Position numbers and translations under genes: made by a program. From Lysobacter sp. (lineage in GTDB: Bacteria; Pseudomonadota; Gammaproteobacteria; Burkholderiales; Usitatibacteraceae): a stretch of 32,799 nt of DNA. This document shows positions 27,801 through 31,725 of this stretch, piece by piece. Under the pieces are notes generated by a model, which ran no database searches, was not told the origin of the DNA, and was given only the letters and a program-made list of their open reading frames with translations. Numbering within the stretch: position 1 is the first letter of the stretch; the number at the start of each line of letters is the position of its first letter. The stretch spans positions 1 through 32,799 of the forward strand of contig JAMPXV010000009.1 in NCBI GenBank assembly GCA_023700985.1. The letters run 5' to 3'.

Positions 27801-28310
27801 ATGACTGCAAAAGCAATGCAGGACCGAACGATCGATTCCACCGATCGCCGCATCATGGCGGAACTGCAGAGGAACGGGCGCATCACCAACGTGGAACTGG
27901 CCGGCCGCTGCCACCTGAGCCCGGCGGCCTGCCTGGTGCGCGTGCGCGGCCTGGAGCAGGCCGGCTACATCCAGGGCTACCGGGCCATCCTCGACCCCGC
28001 GCGCCTGGGGCAGGCCATGGTCGTCTTCGTCGAGATCAAGCTCGACCGGACCACGAGCGACGCCTTCAAGCGCTTCGCAACCGCGGTGGCCGGCATTCCC
28101 GAGATCGTCGAGTGCCACATGGTCGCGGGAGGATTCGACTACCTCATCAAGGTGCGCGTCGAGAACATGGCGGTCTACCGCGACGTGCTCACCAAGGTGC
28201 TGGTGGAACTGCCCGCGGTGCGCGAGACGCACACCTTCGCCGTGATCGAGGAGGTCAAGAACGACCCCACCATCCACCTGCCGGTGACGCGCGCCGGGAA
28301 GCGGCGCTAG
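27801..28310 (+). CDS. Lrp/AsnC-family transcriptional regulator, probable proline-responsive activator of putA
   Basis: A 169-residue regulator. The N-terminal helix-turn-helix (about 12-70) includes DSTDRRIMAELQRNGRITNVELAGRCHLSPAACLVRVRGLEQAGYI. The C-terminal RAM ligand/oligomer domain (about 78-155) includes AMVVFVEIKL, VECHMVAGGFDYLIKVRV and VRETHTFAVIEEVK. The length is typical. Lrp-type genes divergent from putA (PutR or BkdR-like) activate proline use in response to proline in other proteobacteria; that function is inferred here from position. ATG 27801 is the first start, and ATG 27816 (MQDRTIDS) is possible and closer to the conserved region. The stop overlaps the stop of the convergent OGFr-domain gene in the four bases CTAG. 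Confidence 0.93.
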   Translation: MTAKAMQDRTIDSTDRRIMAELQRNGRITNVELAGRCHLSPAACLVRVRGLEQAGYIQGYRAILDPARLGQAMVVFVEIKLDRTTSDAFKRFATAVAGIPEIVECHMVAGGFDYLIKVRVENMAVYRDVLTKVLVELPAVRETHTFAVIEEVKNDPTIHLPVTRAGKRR

Positions 28311-28825
28311 GACGCGGCGGCCCTTCGCCAGTAGCCGAGGGTGTCCGAGCCGACGGCCCACCCGTTCTCGCGGACGATCTCCTCGAGGCAGGCGAGGAAG
28401 GCCCGCGCTTCCGGCCCGCACCCCAGCAGCGCCAGGCAGCGCAGGATGCGGCTGATGCGCAGGAAATTGTGCGAGCGGTCCAGCCATTCGGCGCTGCGCG
28501 CGGCGTAGCCGGGTCCGCGGGCGATCGCGACGGCTTCCCCCGCGCCGGGGCGCCGCAGGCCGTAGAAGGCGAGCATCGTGTCCAGGGAGCGCAGGAGTTC
28601 CTCGCGCAGCGCCGGCTCGGCGGCGAACGCGTCGATGTCCTCGCGCGCGAGGATCGGCGCGTGGGCGCTGGCGCCGCTCGGCTCGGGCAGGGGGAAGAGC
28701 CACTGGATGAAGTCGTGCGTGCCCTCGAGCCGGCCGGTGTCGAAGGCGCGGATGTCGCGAAGGCTCCGGCCGCGATGGTCGGGCCCCTCGTGCCTGTAGA
28801 AGCGAAGCAGCGCGCTCGCGGCCAT
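28307..28825 (-). CDS. Opioid growth factor receptor (OGFr) conserved-region family protein
   Basis: A 172-residue cytoplasmic protein matching the OGFr conserved region named after a vertebrate receptor and also found in bacteria. The family pattern is visible: LEGTHDFIQWLFPLPEPS, then APIL, then a helix with MLAFYGLRR, then SHNFLRISRILRCLALLG. Its function in bacteria is unknown and the receptor name should not be taken as a role. The start is ATG 28825, nine bases after the stop of the Bug-type binding protein, so the two may be cotranscribed, although no strong ribosome site is seen. The frame stays open further upstream through that gene, which is an artefact. It ends in CTAG shared with the Lrp gene. 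Confidence 0.85.
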   Translation of the reverse strand: MAASALLRFYRHEGPDHRGRSLRDIRAFDTGRLEGTHDFIQWLFPLPEPSGASAHAPILAREDIDAFAAEPALREELLRSLDTMLAFYGLRRPGAGEAVAIARGPGYAARSAEWLDRSHNFLRISRILRCLALLGCGPEARAFLACLEEIVRENGWAVGSDTLGYWRRAAAS

Positions 28826-28833
28826 GGTCGGCG

Positions 28834-29751
28834 CTACCGGCGCTTGCGCAGGCCGACGGTGCCGGCGAGGAACCCGGCGCTGCGCGATTCCTCGTCCAGG
28901 AAGCGCGCGTAGTCCGAGCCGTGCATGTACACCGGCGTCCAGCCGCGCTGCGCGAGCAGCGCCTGCCAGGCGGGCGCGGCGGTGGCGGCCTTCACGCGCG
29001 ACAGCAACTCGTCGCGCTGCGAGGGGCGAAGGCCCGGCGCGGCGAAGAGCCCGTGCCAGTTGCCGAACACCAGGTCGATGCCCTGTTCCTTGAGGGCGGG
29101 GATGCCGGAAACCGCCTTGGGAGCGGAAACCGCGAGCGCGCGCACGCGGCCGGCCTTGATGGCGGGCGCCAGTTCGTGCAGCTTGCCGATTCCCGCCGCG
29201 GCCCCCGCCCCGCCCGGCGCCAGGCGGATGCGCGAGGCGTCGGCGCCCAGGGTCCGCGCCAGGTAGGCGACGAGCAGGTGTTGCGCGCTGCCCGGGGTGC
29301 CCGCGTCCCAGGCGACCGAGCCGGGGTCGGCCTTGAAGGCGCGCGCGAGGTCGGCCATCGACTTGTGCGGCGAGCCCGCCGGCACGAACACGGCGAAGTA
29401 CCCCACCGCGAGCCGCGCGAGCGGCGTGCCGTCCTGCGGGCGCGGCGAAGCGGGGTCGAGCTCGGCGGCGACCAGCAGGTCCTGGCCGCCCACGAGGAAG
29501 GTCATCGGGTCGCCCTTCGACGACTTCAGGAACTCCGCAAGTGCCCTCGTGCCCCCGGCGTCCCCGTGGTTGGCGTACTCCACCGTCGTCGCGGCCCCCA
29601 CCGAGAGCATCGCGGCGCCGAGCGCCCGTCCGGCGCGGTCCCAATCCGACCCCGCCTCCGCGGGGATGACCACGCGCATCGGCGACTGCGCGAGGCTGGC
29701 GGCGGACAGGGCGAGGGCGGCAAGGGTGCCGAGGATGCGCTTGCGCAGCAT
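28834..29751 (-). CDS. Bug-family (TctC-like) periplasmic substrate-binding protein, second copy
   Basis: A 305-residue secreted binding protein. The signal peptide is MLRKRILGTLAALALSAAS with a cleavage site near SLAQ. The mature part follows Bug order: RVVIPAEAGSDWDRAGRALG, LVGGQDLL, FVPAGSPHKSMADLARAFK, KLHELAPAIKAGRVRALAVSAP and IPALKEQGIDLVFGNWHGLFA. It is divergent from the tctC product at 445-1413 and has no TctA/TctB partner nearby, which is common for orphan Bug proteins. The start is ATG 29751; the frame is open much further upstream (to 31536) only as an antisense artefact of the prpF region. Its divergent neighbour is the PrpF fusion, suggesting a carboxylate ligand (inference). 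Confidence 0.9.
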   Translation of the reverse strand: MLRKRILGTLAALALSAASLAQSPMRVVIPAEAGSDWDRAGRALGAAMLSVGAATTVEYANHGDAGGTRALAEFLKSSKGDPMTFLVGGQDLLVAAELDPASPRPQDGTPLARLAVGYFAVFVPAGSPHKSMADLARAFKADPGSVAWDAGTPGSAQHLLVAYLARTLGADASRIRLAPGGAGAAAGIGKLHELAPAIKAGRVRALAVSAPKAVSGIPALKEQGIDLVFGNWHGLFAAPGLRPSQRDELLSRVKAATAAPAWQALLAQRGWTPVYMHGSDYARFLDEESRSAGFLAGTVGLRKRR

Positions 29752-29856: not shown

Positions 29857-31725
29857 ATGACCCAGATGCGCATTCCCGCCGTGTACATGCGCGGCGGCAC
29901 CAGCAAGGGCGTGTTCTTCCACGAACGCGACCTCCCCGTCGACCCCCGCGAGCGCGACCGAGTGCTGTTGCGCGTCATCGGCAGCCCCGACCCCTACGGA
30001 AAGCAGATCGACGGCATGGGGGCGGCGACCTCGAGCACGAGCAAGATCGTGATCATCGCCAGGTCGTCGCGGCCGGACTGCGACGTGGACTACCTCTTCG
30101 GGCAGGTCGCCATCGACCGGGCGGCGATCGACTGGTCGGGCAACTGCGGCAACCTCACCGGCGCCGTCGGCCCGTTCGCCGTCTCGGAGCGGCTCGTCGA
30201 GGCGCCGCGCGACGGCACGGCGGTCGTGCGCATCTGGCAGGCCAACGTCGGCGCGCGCATCGTCTCGCACGTGCCCGTGCGTGGCGGCGAGGTGGTGGAG
30301 GAAGGCGAGTTCGAACTGGACGGCGTCACCTTTCCCTCGGCCGAGATCCGCCTGGAGTTCATGGACCCGGGTGGGGACGGCGGCGAGGAAGCCGGCAGGG
30401 CGATGTTCCCGACACGGCGCGTGCTGGACCGGCTCGAGGTGCCGGGCGTGGGCCGCATCGAGGCCACGCTCATCAACGCCGGCAACCCCACGGTGTTCGT
30501 GGACGCCGCCTCGCTGGGGCTCACGGGGACGGAGCGGCAGGACGACGTGAACGGCGACGCGGCGCTCCTCGCGCGCTGCGAGGCGGTGCGGGCGCACGCG
30601 GCGGTCGCCATGGGCCTCGCGGCGTCGGCCGGGGAAGCCACCCGCAGCCGCCCCGCCACGCCCAAGCTCGCGTTCGTCGCGCCGCCTATGTCCTATCGCG
30701 CCGCCAGCGGCAAGGACGTCGACGCAGGAGAGATAGCGCTCACCGCGCGCATCGTCTCCATGGGCAAGCTGCACCACGCGATGACGGGCACCGGGGCGGT
30801 GGCCATCGCCGCGGCGGGCGCGGTGCCGGGCACGGTCGTGCACCGCGCGCTGCGTCCCGGCACGGACCCGTCGCGGCTTTGCTTCGGCCACGCCTCCGGA
30901 ACCCTTTGCGTCGGCGCCGAGGCGAGCGAGAGCCACGGCCAGTGGACCGTCACGAAGGCGGTGGTGAGCCGCAGCGCGCGCCGGCTCATGGAAGGCTGGG
31001 TGCGCGTGCCGCCCCCGGAGATCGCGCCCGGCGGCGTGCTGCGCGTCGGCGTGAACTTCGGCAACCCGGTGATCGCGCAGCGCGACCCGGCGAGCGGCGA
31101 GCCGCGCGGCGTGGGCCCCGCGCTGGGGCGTGAGGTCGCGCGGCGCTACGGCGTGCCGGTGACTTTCGTCCCCTACGAAACCGCCGGCAAGATGGCCGAC
31201 GGCGCGAAGGCCGGCGCGTGGGACGTGGCCTTCCTCGCCGTGGATCCGGCGCGCGCCACCGACATCGACTTCACGGCGCCCTACGTGCACATCGAGGGCA
31301 ACTGCCTCGTGCCCGACGGCTCCGCATTCCGTCGGCTGGCCGACCTCGATCGCGAGGGCGTGCGCATTTCCGTGGGCAACAAGACGGCCTACGACCTCTT
31401 CCTCACCCGCGAGGTGCGCCGGGCGCAGCTCGTGCGCGCGCCGTCGTCGACTGCCGCGCTGGATGCCTTCCTCGAGCAGGGCCTGGAGGCCGCCGCGGGC
31501 GTGCGCCAGCCGCTCGAGAAGTTCGCCGCCGCCCACCCGGGGCTGCGCCTGCTCGACGAGCCCTACATGGTGATCGGCCAGGCGTCCGGCGTCCCGAAGG
31601 GCCGGCCTGCGGCCGCGGCCTGGCTCGCCGCCTTCATCGAGGAGGCCAAGCGCAGCGGGCTGGTGAAGGCGGCGCTGGCCGAAAGCGGGCAGGGCGACGT
31701 CACCGTCGCGCCCCCGGCAACCTGA
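29857..31725 (+). CDS. prpF: PrpF-family isomerase fused to a periplasmic-binding-protein-like (SBP_bac_3) domain
   Basis: A 622-residue two-domain protein. Residues ~1-386 are a complete PrpF-type isomerase (diaminopimelate epimerase fold; 2-methylaconitate cis-trans isomerase and oxalomesaconate tautomerase relatives). It shows YMRGGTSKGVFF, Lys63 in SSTSKIVI, Cys97 in SGNCGNLTGAVGPFA (the Lys/Cys spacing of 34 equals that in LigU, as I recall it), FGHASGTLCVGAE and the usual ending RRLMEGWVRVP. Residues ~392-622 form a second domain resembling family 3 solute-binding proteins: GVLRVGVNFGNPV, GVGPALGREVARRYGVPVTFVPYETAGKM, DFTAPYVHIEGNCLVP. No signal peptide or membrane segment exists, so the whole protein should be cytoplasmic. 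The join (nt ~31010-31035) is continuous, with no stop or good internal ribosome site. The start ATG 29857 is divergent from the Bug-type gene. The binding domain may sense or present a dicarboxylate; unproven. Confidence 0.9.
   Translation: MTQMRIPAVYMRGGTSKGVFFHERDLPVDPRERDRVLLRVIGSPDPYGKQIDGMGAATSSTSKIVIIARSSRPDCDVDYLFGQVAIDRAAIDWSGNCGNLTGAVGPFAVSERLVEAPRDGTAVVRIWQANVGARIVSHVPVRGGEVVEEGEFELDGVTFPSAEIRLEFMDPGGDGGEEAGRAMFPTRRVLDRLEVPGVGRIEATLINAGNPTVFVDAASLGLTGTERQDDVNGDAALLARCEAVRAHAAVAMGLAASAGEATRSRPATPKLAFVAPPMSYRAASGKDVDAGEIALTARIVSMGKLHHAMTGTGAVAIAAAGAVPGTVVHRALRPGTDPSRLCFGHASGTLCVGAEASESHGQWTVTKAVVSRSARRLMEGWVRVPPPEIAPGGVLRVGVNFGNPVIAQRDPASGEPRGVGPALGREVARRYGVPVTFVPYETAGKMADGAKAGAWDVAFLAVDPARATDIDFTAPYVHIEGNCLVPDGSAFRRLADLDREGVRISVGNKTAYDLFLTREVRRAQLVRAPSSTAALDAFLEQGLEAAAGVRQPLEKFAAAHPGLRLLDEPYMVIGQASGVPKGRPAAAAWLAAFIEEAKRSGLVKAALAESGQGDVTVAPPAT

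Follow-up and report, generated by a model that had tools for sequence, protein, structure and literature searches.

The window analysed here is a 32,799-nucleotide contig of Lysobacter sp. (GenBank JAMPXV010000009.1, assembly GCA_023700985.1, read along its forward strand), and near its end lies a single gene that joins a PrpF-type isomerase to a family-3 solute-binding protein (SBP) domain (Table 1). The frame runs from an ATG at 29857 to a TGA ending at 31725 without interruption and encodes 622 residues, and the profile matches bear out the initial annotation, which had read it as one continuous fusion of these two families. Pfam PF04303 (PrpF) matches residues 3–385 over its whole length (profile positions 1–371 of 371, E 2e-144), and PF00497 (SBP_bac_3) matches residues 395–605 (E 9.3e-13, 48.5 bits against a gathering cut-off of 26.4). 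The NCBIfam model TIGR02334 (prpF) is likewise matched at full length (positions 1–387 of 390) and well above its curated cut-off (555 bits versus 440.55), whereas the same half scores only 288.6 against the cut-off of 440 of the sister family, 4-oxalomesaconate tautomerase.

The closest relatives of known structure by sequence are PrpF itself (2pvz/5k87) for the first half and, for the second, ancestral and present-day cyclohexadienyl dehydratases (CDT), of which AncCDT-5 (6wup) is matched by the whole fused protein at E 1.9e-12. Like the PrpF of Shewanella oneidensis, a 2-methylaconitate isomerase, the window protein has the whole domain, a TIGR02334 score over the cut-off and the catalytic Lys and Cys pair, here K63 and C97 as previously annotated; the roles of the Shewanella counterparts, K73 and C107, are described in the accessible part of PMC5690661. 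Unlike Shewanella PrpF, it carries a C-terminal SBP, and its genome has a PrpD operon and no AcnD above the cut-off. The PrpF part ends MEGWVRVP, four residues (PPEI) follow, and the SBP motif AP-x-G begins.

No export signal is apparent in this arrangement: the SBP domain directly follows PrpF, the N-terminus is that of PrpF, and over the 60 residues that precede the SBP part no 11-residue stretch has a mean Kyte–Doolittle hydrophobicity above 1.1. The separately encoded SBP partners in related genomes, described below, also lack a signal-like stretch. The absence of a signal peptide noted earlier thus stands, and from its sequence the fused protein is predicted to be cytoplasmic.

Table 1. 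Features of the fused gene and its immediate neighbours, in window coordinates.
Feature	Position	Strand	Remarks
Fused prpF-SBP gene	29857..31725	+	622 aa, open frame; architecture in 5 of 8 genus genomes in total
PrpF isomerase domain, residues 1–385	29857..31011	+	PF04303, TIGR02334, PDB 2pvz E 4e-145
Lys63	30043..30045	+	equivalent of K73 of Shewanella PrpF
Cys97	30145..30147	+	equivalent of C107 of Shewanella PrpF
12-nt junction (PPEI)	31012..31023	+	53 nt here in split relatives
SBP_bac_3-like domain, residues 390–622, without signal peptide	31024..31722	+	PF00497; AncCDT-5 6wup
N400 and N403	31054..31065	+	invariant (90/90); align with first-strand Asp and Tyr of AncCDT-1; N403 is at Tyr22 of PaCDT
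R466	31252..31254	+	invariant (90/90); aligns with the conserved SBP_3 Arg
Y512	31390..31392	+	invariant (90/90); aligns with active-site Asn133 of PaCDT
V549-R550	31501..31506	+	L/V/I at the amine-binding Asp position (90/90), then K/R (86/90)
FMN-dependent 2-hydroxyacid dehydrogenase, truncated at the contig end	31757..32797	+	PF01070 E 1.1e-109; starts 31 nt after the fused gene
Divergent Bug/TctC protein	28834..29751	-	PF03401 E 1e-19; context only

Fused and separate forms of the gene

Eight genomes of the window's genus were compared, G000 being the window's own. The fused gene is present in five of them, G000, G007 (94% identity), G003 (78%), G001 (77%) and G006 (76%), the identities holding over at least 620 residues, so that related genomes do not always encode two separate genes, the alternative raised by the initial annotation. 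In two further genomes, G002 and G004, prpF and the gene of a signal-less SBP are adjacent and co-directional, with gaps of 11 and 5 nt, respectively. The genus thus offers a clean case in which a gene fusion can be seen alongside an unfused state.

The junction itself suggests how the two genes were joined. The distance from the VRVP that ends PrpF to the AP-x-G motif is 12 nt in each of the five fused genes, compared with 53 nt in the two split pairs, where it takes in a stop codon, a purine-rich stretch and the SBP gene's start and initial codons; losing a net 41 nt would put the two halves in one frame and so explains the fusion. Junction length and frame are identical across the five fused genes, which answers the concern that a missing base or an assembly join lay at this point. 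This is a true gene fusion. The initial annotation had proposed a specific domain recruitment, and we found no sign of one from the periplasm: in both split genomes the SBP encoded beside prpF already lacks a signal, and the net 41-nt deletion suffices. Scanning deposited contigs with the SBP domain gave four loci, among them two filed under other groups that carry the junction as well. One, filed under an Eisenbacteria metagenome-assembled genome (MAG), holds another copy of the fusion, truncated at the 5' end (L048), and is perhaps a stray contig; the other, filed under a Steroidobacter MAG, holds the junction only, after unrelated sequence at a contig end (L049), and both may be contaminants.

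We infer from these comparisons that the fusion arose once, by deletion. Trees were built for the PrpF half (26 hand-chosen rows, rooted on one distant outgroup row) and for the SBP half (27 hand-chosen rows), and in each tree the fused rows, six with L048, cluster as a single clade (support 88/85 and 80/85, respectively), which makes a single origin the simplest reading without strongly forcing it. In the SBP tree the split and fused rows, together with those of G012 and G014, fall in a 100/98 clade. Both halves are under purifying selection: dN/dS values for PrpF and SBP, respectively, are 0.04 and 0.10 in the closest fused pair (G000/G007) and 0.02 and 0.05 in the split pair (G002/G004), with more distant pairs (NG86) showing dN of 0.13–0.24 and dS of 0.40–0.98.

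Outside the genus the fused form was not seen. Samples of 369 genomes of the class and 398 of the phylum, each including the window's own and each scored on the best three candidates per genome, gave no fusion among the matches listed, and a fusion would top the phylum list; nor did 76 genomes from the order to which G900 belongs, in another class of the phylum, contain one. Among 390 matching plasmid records, two cover at least 80% of the fused protein in one place, and both prove to be adjacent separate genes in the order prpF then SBP on the same strand: on a Cupriavidus taiwanensis plasmid they lie 51 nt apart, behind a TctC gene, and on an Agrobacterium larrymoorei plasmid 4 nt apart. The SBPs of these two plasmids begin MSNLEIIANDLAPTGKLRASIN and MSNIVELAEQIAPTGRLRVAIN, respectively, without a signal peptide. 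Such adjacent pairs extend the prpF–SBP partnership beyond the window's lineage. Neither SBP belongs to the 100/98 clade, which makes more than one origin of the pairing probable.

One candidate for a different fusion was set aside. In Paracoccus marcusii KGP (L196, 4134-5693) an SBP shares an annotated frame with a C-terminal piece of an isopropylmalate-type dehydrogenase; it is not counted as a second fusion, since the upstream gene is broken and the stretch contains ambiguous letters. The isopropylmalate-type dehydrogenase and SBP genes of Paracoccus alcaliphilus are separated by 1 nt. Among the titles and abstract openings searched, in a coverage that mostly excludes subscription journals, we recognised no PrpF–SBP fusion or gene pair and no cytosolic signal-less SBPs; both domains belong to known families, and it is the architecture and the cytosolic SBP partnership that were not met in the literature searched.

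Signal-less relatives and the predicted ligand pocket

In the window's order, 95 of 399 genomes encode a relative of the SBP half at E 1e-20 or better. We screened 91 loci, comprising 80 regions from the stronger part of a longer list and the loci of the protein's own family, and aligned 90 SBP sequences, the remaining locus (L036, the lone prpF of G005) having no SBP. Signal state was judged by a hydrophobicity threshold of our own rather than by a trained predictor. Five of the 90 are the fused proteins; 26 have at most 25 codons between the upstream stop and the domain, with no hydrophobic stretch; 42, including the two split partners, have a longer open frame and again no hydrophobic stretch over the threshold; and 17 begin with a signal-like stretch, in 13 cases with a lipobox. 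One member of the group of 42 (L174) looks signal-bearing by eye. The subfamily is therefore mostly signal-less with some exported members, and stand-alone signal-less relatives, which the initial annotation had mentioned, do exist in related bacteria. A similar picture comes from the order of G900, where 49 of the 71 listed SBP rows lie in frames of exactly 244 codons, with about 10 codons before the domain.

The window's own genome holds both kinds. A second SBP_3 paralogue (G000:C6:8179-8880; L130 5965-6702), 48% identical, has a lipoprotein-type signal, so that exported and fused cytosolic versions of the same subfamily occur together. G012 and G014 each have a full-length lipoprotein-like member in tandem with a shorter matching gene (L106 5103-6427 and L115 6019-7220, respectively).

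Conservation across the alignment points to a remodelled ligand site. Ten residues are identical in all 90 rows, the five fused ones included: R396, N400, N403, G418, R466, I479, D498, Y512, L516 and K598. R466 stands at the conserved Arg that binds the ligand carboxylate in SBP_3 proteins, and V549 at the Asp that holds the amino group in amino-acid-binding members of the family. Of this Arg/Asp pair for alpha-amino acids, the Arg is kept in 90 of 90 rows and the Asp in none. When the nine PaCDT active-site residues given in PMC10520331 are placed on the alignment, not one agrees with the family consensus and the window retains none of them; the column of Glu173 has Glu in 3 of 90 rows and Pro in the window. 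CDT activity of the SBP half can be ruled out on these residues. N403 and Y512 occupy the places of PaCDT Tyr22 and Asn133, respectively, and so likely face the ligand. The loss of the Asp and the lack of any PaCDT residue as consensus argue against an alpha-amino acid or prephenate as ligand, and a carboxylate without an amino group would be the natural guess.

The comparison with SBP_bac_3 amino-acid-binding proteins sums to a shared PF00497 family and carboxylate Arg on one side and, on the other, a window SBP without signal peptide, without the amine-binding Asp and without an ABC transporter gene among its scanned neighbours. Residue 574 (window 31576-31578) is Gly only in the window and G007 (2 of 90 rows) and is Gln or Arg in 60 of 90.

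Gene neighbourhoods

Directly downstream of the fused gene, and possibly co-transcribed with it, is an FMN-dependent 2-hydroxyacid dehydrogenase. This gene is directly downstream in four of the five fused loci and 1 kb off in the fifth (G001), which makes it a more constant neighbour than Bug/TctC. A comparable pairing was found in genus g16 of another family (f13), in which the SBP gene follows a dehydrogenase of the same type within about 80 nt in six of seven loci, and in which four loci (L146, L165, L172 and L185) show a same-strand run of TctC, MmgE/PrpD, FMN dehydrogenase and signal-less SBP; gene clusters here were defined by BLAST and representatives scanned. The SBP–dehydrogenase pairings thus amount to two lineages and not to twelve independent cases.

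On the other side, a divergent Bug/TctC gene, which the initial annotation had mentioned, flanks the fused gene in three of five loci (G000, G003 and, as a cut gene, G007) and does not do so directly in G001 or G006. TctC genes are near 29 of the 90 SBP loci, 31 are present in the window's own genome, and first-look candidates numbered 241 to 454 in 8 of 18 genomes with none matched in two, figures to be read as frequencies only. Because such genes are common, this neighbour is weak evidence of function. The five neighbours scanned in the window, which run from PutA as far as the FMN dehydrogenase, include no ABC permease or ATPase; around the other four fused genes the comparison was by cluster only. 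Beside the Bug gene (window 28307-28825) lies a small protein with an OGFr_N domain (opioid growth factor receptor conserved region, E 2e-22), and a relative occupies the same place in G003.

Aconitase and PrpF-like genes recur near members of the SBP family. An aconitase gene with a prpF-like gene immediately beside it lies 1.4 kb (G012) or a few kb (G014) from the SBP gene, and the prpF-like copy of G012 scores below both the PrpF and the tautomerase cut-offs. In Paracoccus alcaliphilus and in G044 a PrpF-superfamily gene lies 3.5–3.7 kb from the SBP gene; in the former it is a 4-oxalomesaconate tautomerase, in the latter a distant PrpF relative (L156 10341-11474, 27% identity) on the same strand and 3.7 kb from a signal-less SBP gene. 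Ten plasmid regions were picked by hand and serve as examples, not rates. An acnA gene is 6–8 kb from the prpF–SBP pair in Cupriavidus and A. larrymoorei and adjoins the SBP gene in Pantoea; the row in Paracoccus alcaliphilus reads Ldh, isopropylmalate-type dehydrogenase, SBP, TctC, TctA and 4-oxalomesaconate tautomerase; tcuB is about 4 kb from the SBP gene in Comamonas endophytica; and the region of Agrobacterium fabrum includes a 2-oxo-heptenedioate hydratase. By annotation, the plasmid regions of Variovorax, Octadecabacter and A. tumefaciens hold no PrpF relative or aconitase. Further afield, in genus g529 of another class of the phylum (L208-L211), the signal-less SBP gene has carboxylesterase-like and enolase-superfamily-like genes as neighbours, named from their first residues only, and the locus of genus g600 (L212) lacks these.

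Possible functions of the fused protein

The isomerase half probably acts outside the methylcitrate cycle. The window's own genome encodes prpB, prpC, prpD and acnA in a row (L202), the PrpD form of that cycle, and its PrpD, behind prpB-prpC, scores 873 bits against a cut-off of 458; with this operon and no AcnD above its cut-off, PrpF should not be needed for the methylcitrate cycle, and a role there together with AcnD becomes unlikely. PrpF-superfamily proteins are known aconitate isomerases, according to the accessible parts of PMC5690661 and PMC11495376, and our best guess is that the substrate here is probably another, aconitate-like tricarboxylate. The TarA and TbrA aconitate isomerases of Bacillus resemble the window protein in belonging to the PrpF superfamily and in the proposed reaction on aconitate; they differ in that the accessible part of PMC11495376 mentions no SBP domain and gives a membrane transporter as their operon partner.

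We propose that the fused protein couples a tricarboxylate isomerase to a cytosolic module that would bind carboxylates, an explanation that we favour and to which we give an even chance of being right. PrpF would isomerise an aconitate-like tricarboxylate, by a cis/trans change or an allylic shift, and not, or not only, a methylcitrate-cycle intermediate. The cleft of the SBP half (N400, N403, R466, Y512 and K/R550) may bind the substrate or product of PrpF's pathway, and the tethered domain could sense the acid, hold it or hand it over next to the isomerase, since tethering would bring the isomerase close to the acid in its bound state, or to a switch between open and closed forms driven by the ligand. 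The isomerase product might then pass to aconitase or to a hydroxyacid dehydrogenase. The sensing, buffering or gating suggested in the initial annotation may hold, with a second catalytic activity as the competing reading.

Several observations weigh against this proposal or against parts of it. The change from Asp to an aliphatic residue argues against amino acids as ligands and does not prove a tricarboxylate, and the pocket was placed by alignment only, AlphaFold on the fusion with a 4-row alignment having given an unusable model (mean pLDDT 36.8). The two halves do not always travel together: G005 has prpF without that SBP gene and, of the 80 further SBP-gene regions of the window's order (about 6 kb on each side, less at contig ends), one holds a PrpF relative, a distant one, and none an adjacent one, which makes the partnership rare within the SBP family. 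The FMN dehydrogenase was not found in G002 and lies elsewhere in G004 and G005 (as it also does in G012 and G014). No AcnD passed the cut-off in any of the ten genomes searched, but the same was true of all 14 control genomes, and the window's genome is 86% complete, so that an AcnD gene could be missing from it. Finally, the split and lone PrpF rows of the genus group in the PrpF tree with 12 rows from other genera (89/81), apart from the fused rows, so we do not claim the present-day split genes as the direct ancestor.

The main rival to a binding module would make the SBP half an enzyme in its own right and the fusion bifunctional, with two steps on an aconitate-like or hydroxy acid; we regard this as possible but rather unlikely. 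SBP-fold proteins have become enzymes before, as cyclohexadienyl dehydratase shows, and it is CDT enzymes and their ancestors that are the nearest solved structures by sequence. The pocket has invariant residues, with a Tyr at a CDT active-site position, and in the loci examined the signal-less genes often sit among catabolic enzymes (the clusters with FMN dehydrogenase and MmgE/PrpD, Ldh, isopropylmalate-type dehydrogenases, acnA, otnK and 2-oxo-heptenedioate hydratase). A precedent for an SBP-fold domain fused to an enzyme also exists in the CDT–chorismate mutase fusions (PDB 8cq4; accessible part of PMC10520331), but these are exported and have the CDT residues, whereas the window fusion would be cytosolic and lacks them. 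Against catalysis stand the failure of any of the nine PaCDT active-site residues to appear as family consensus and the lack of an obvious invariant acid–base pair besides Tyr512 with Lys/Arg550, and the signal-like N-termini of 17 of the 90 relatives, 13 with a lipobox, fit binding better.

An incidental fusion, in which a neutral deletion joined two proteins that keep independent jobs and gain no coupling beyond a fixed stoichiometry, seems improbable to us. The separate genes are adjacent in G002 and G004, and the fusion is confined to part of one genus and was not seen in the class, phylum and G900-order samples, all of which would suit a chance event; it has nevertheless persisted through divergence to about 76% identity with its junction length unchanged, and this persistence, together with the unfused pairing in other lineages, suggests a benefit from proximity. 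It is very improbable that an internal start also yields a free SBP domain and hence a mixed product. A GTG (V394) lies after the junction, and the junction of G006 contains an ATG, but the nearest GGAG in the window is 15 nt before the GTG, beyond the usual spacing, a free product would be expected to begin at the first strand, and the fused gene lacks the start codon and preceding sequence that the split genes have. An assembly or sequencing artefact, conceivable for one contig of a 319-contig assembly of 86% completeness, is refuted by the same junction in five species-level genomes and the further fused copy in another deposited MAG.

Returning to the favoured binding module, its wider interest lies in the family from which it comes, and the signal-less subfamily is the part of this work that could prove more than a variation on known families. 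SBPs are usually taken as parts of importers; here a group mostly lacks an export signal, has a remodelled ligand site and is often found among carboxylate-degrading enzymes. Tentatively, and as something that we find quite possible though not the likelier outcome, the signal-less SBP_3 proteins of alpha-, beta- and gammaproteobacteria that share the N-x-x-N, Arg, Tyr and Lys/Arg pocket and lie beside organic-acid genes may be an uncharacterised class of cytosolic proteins with the SBP fold that serve as enzymes or as metabolite receptors for carboxylates resembling aconitate, with the fusion as the clue that names the pathway. As a natural pointer to the ligand class, the fusion would make the function of the whole group testable with one protein, and it points to a little-known intracellular role of such binding proteins in organic-acid breakdown.

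Two other systems touch on these proteins. The aconitate isomerase of Pseudomonas sp. WU-0701 is said to resemble a binding protein. In Advenella, a cluster described in PMC5373536 combines prpF, acnD and two TctC genes, a setting unlike that of the window.

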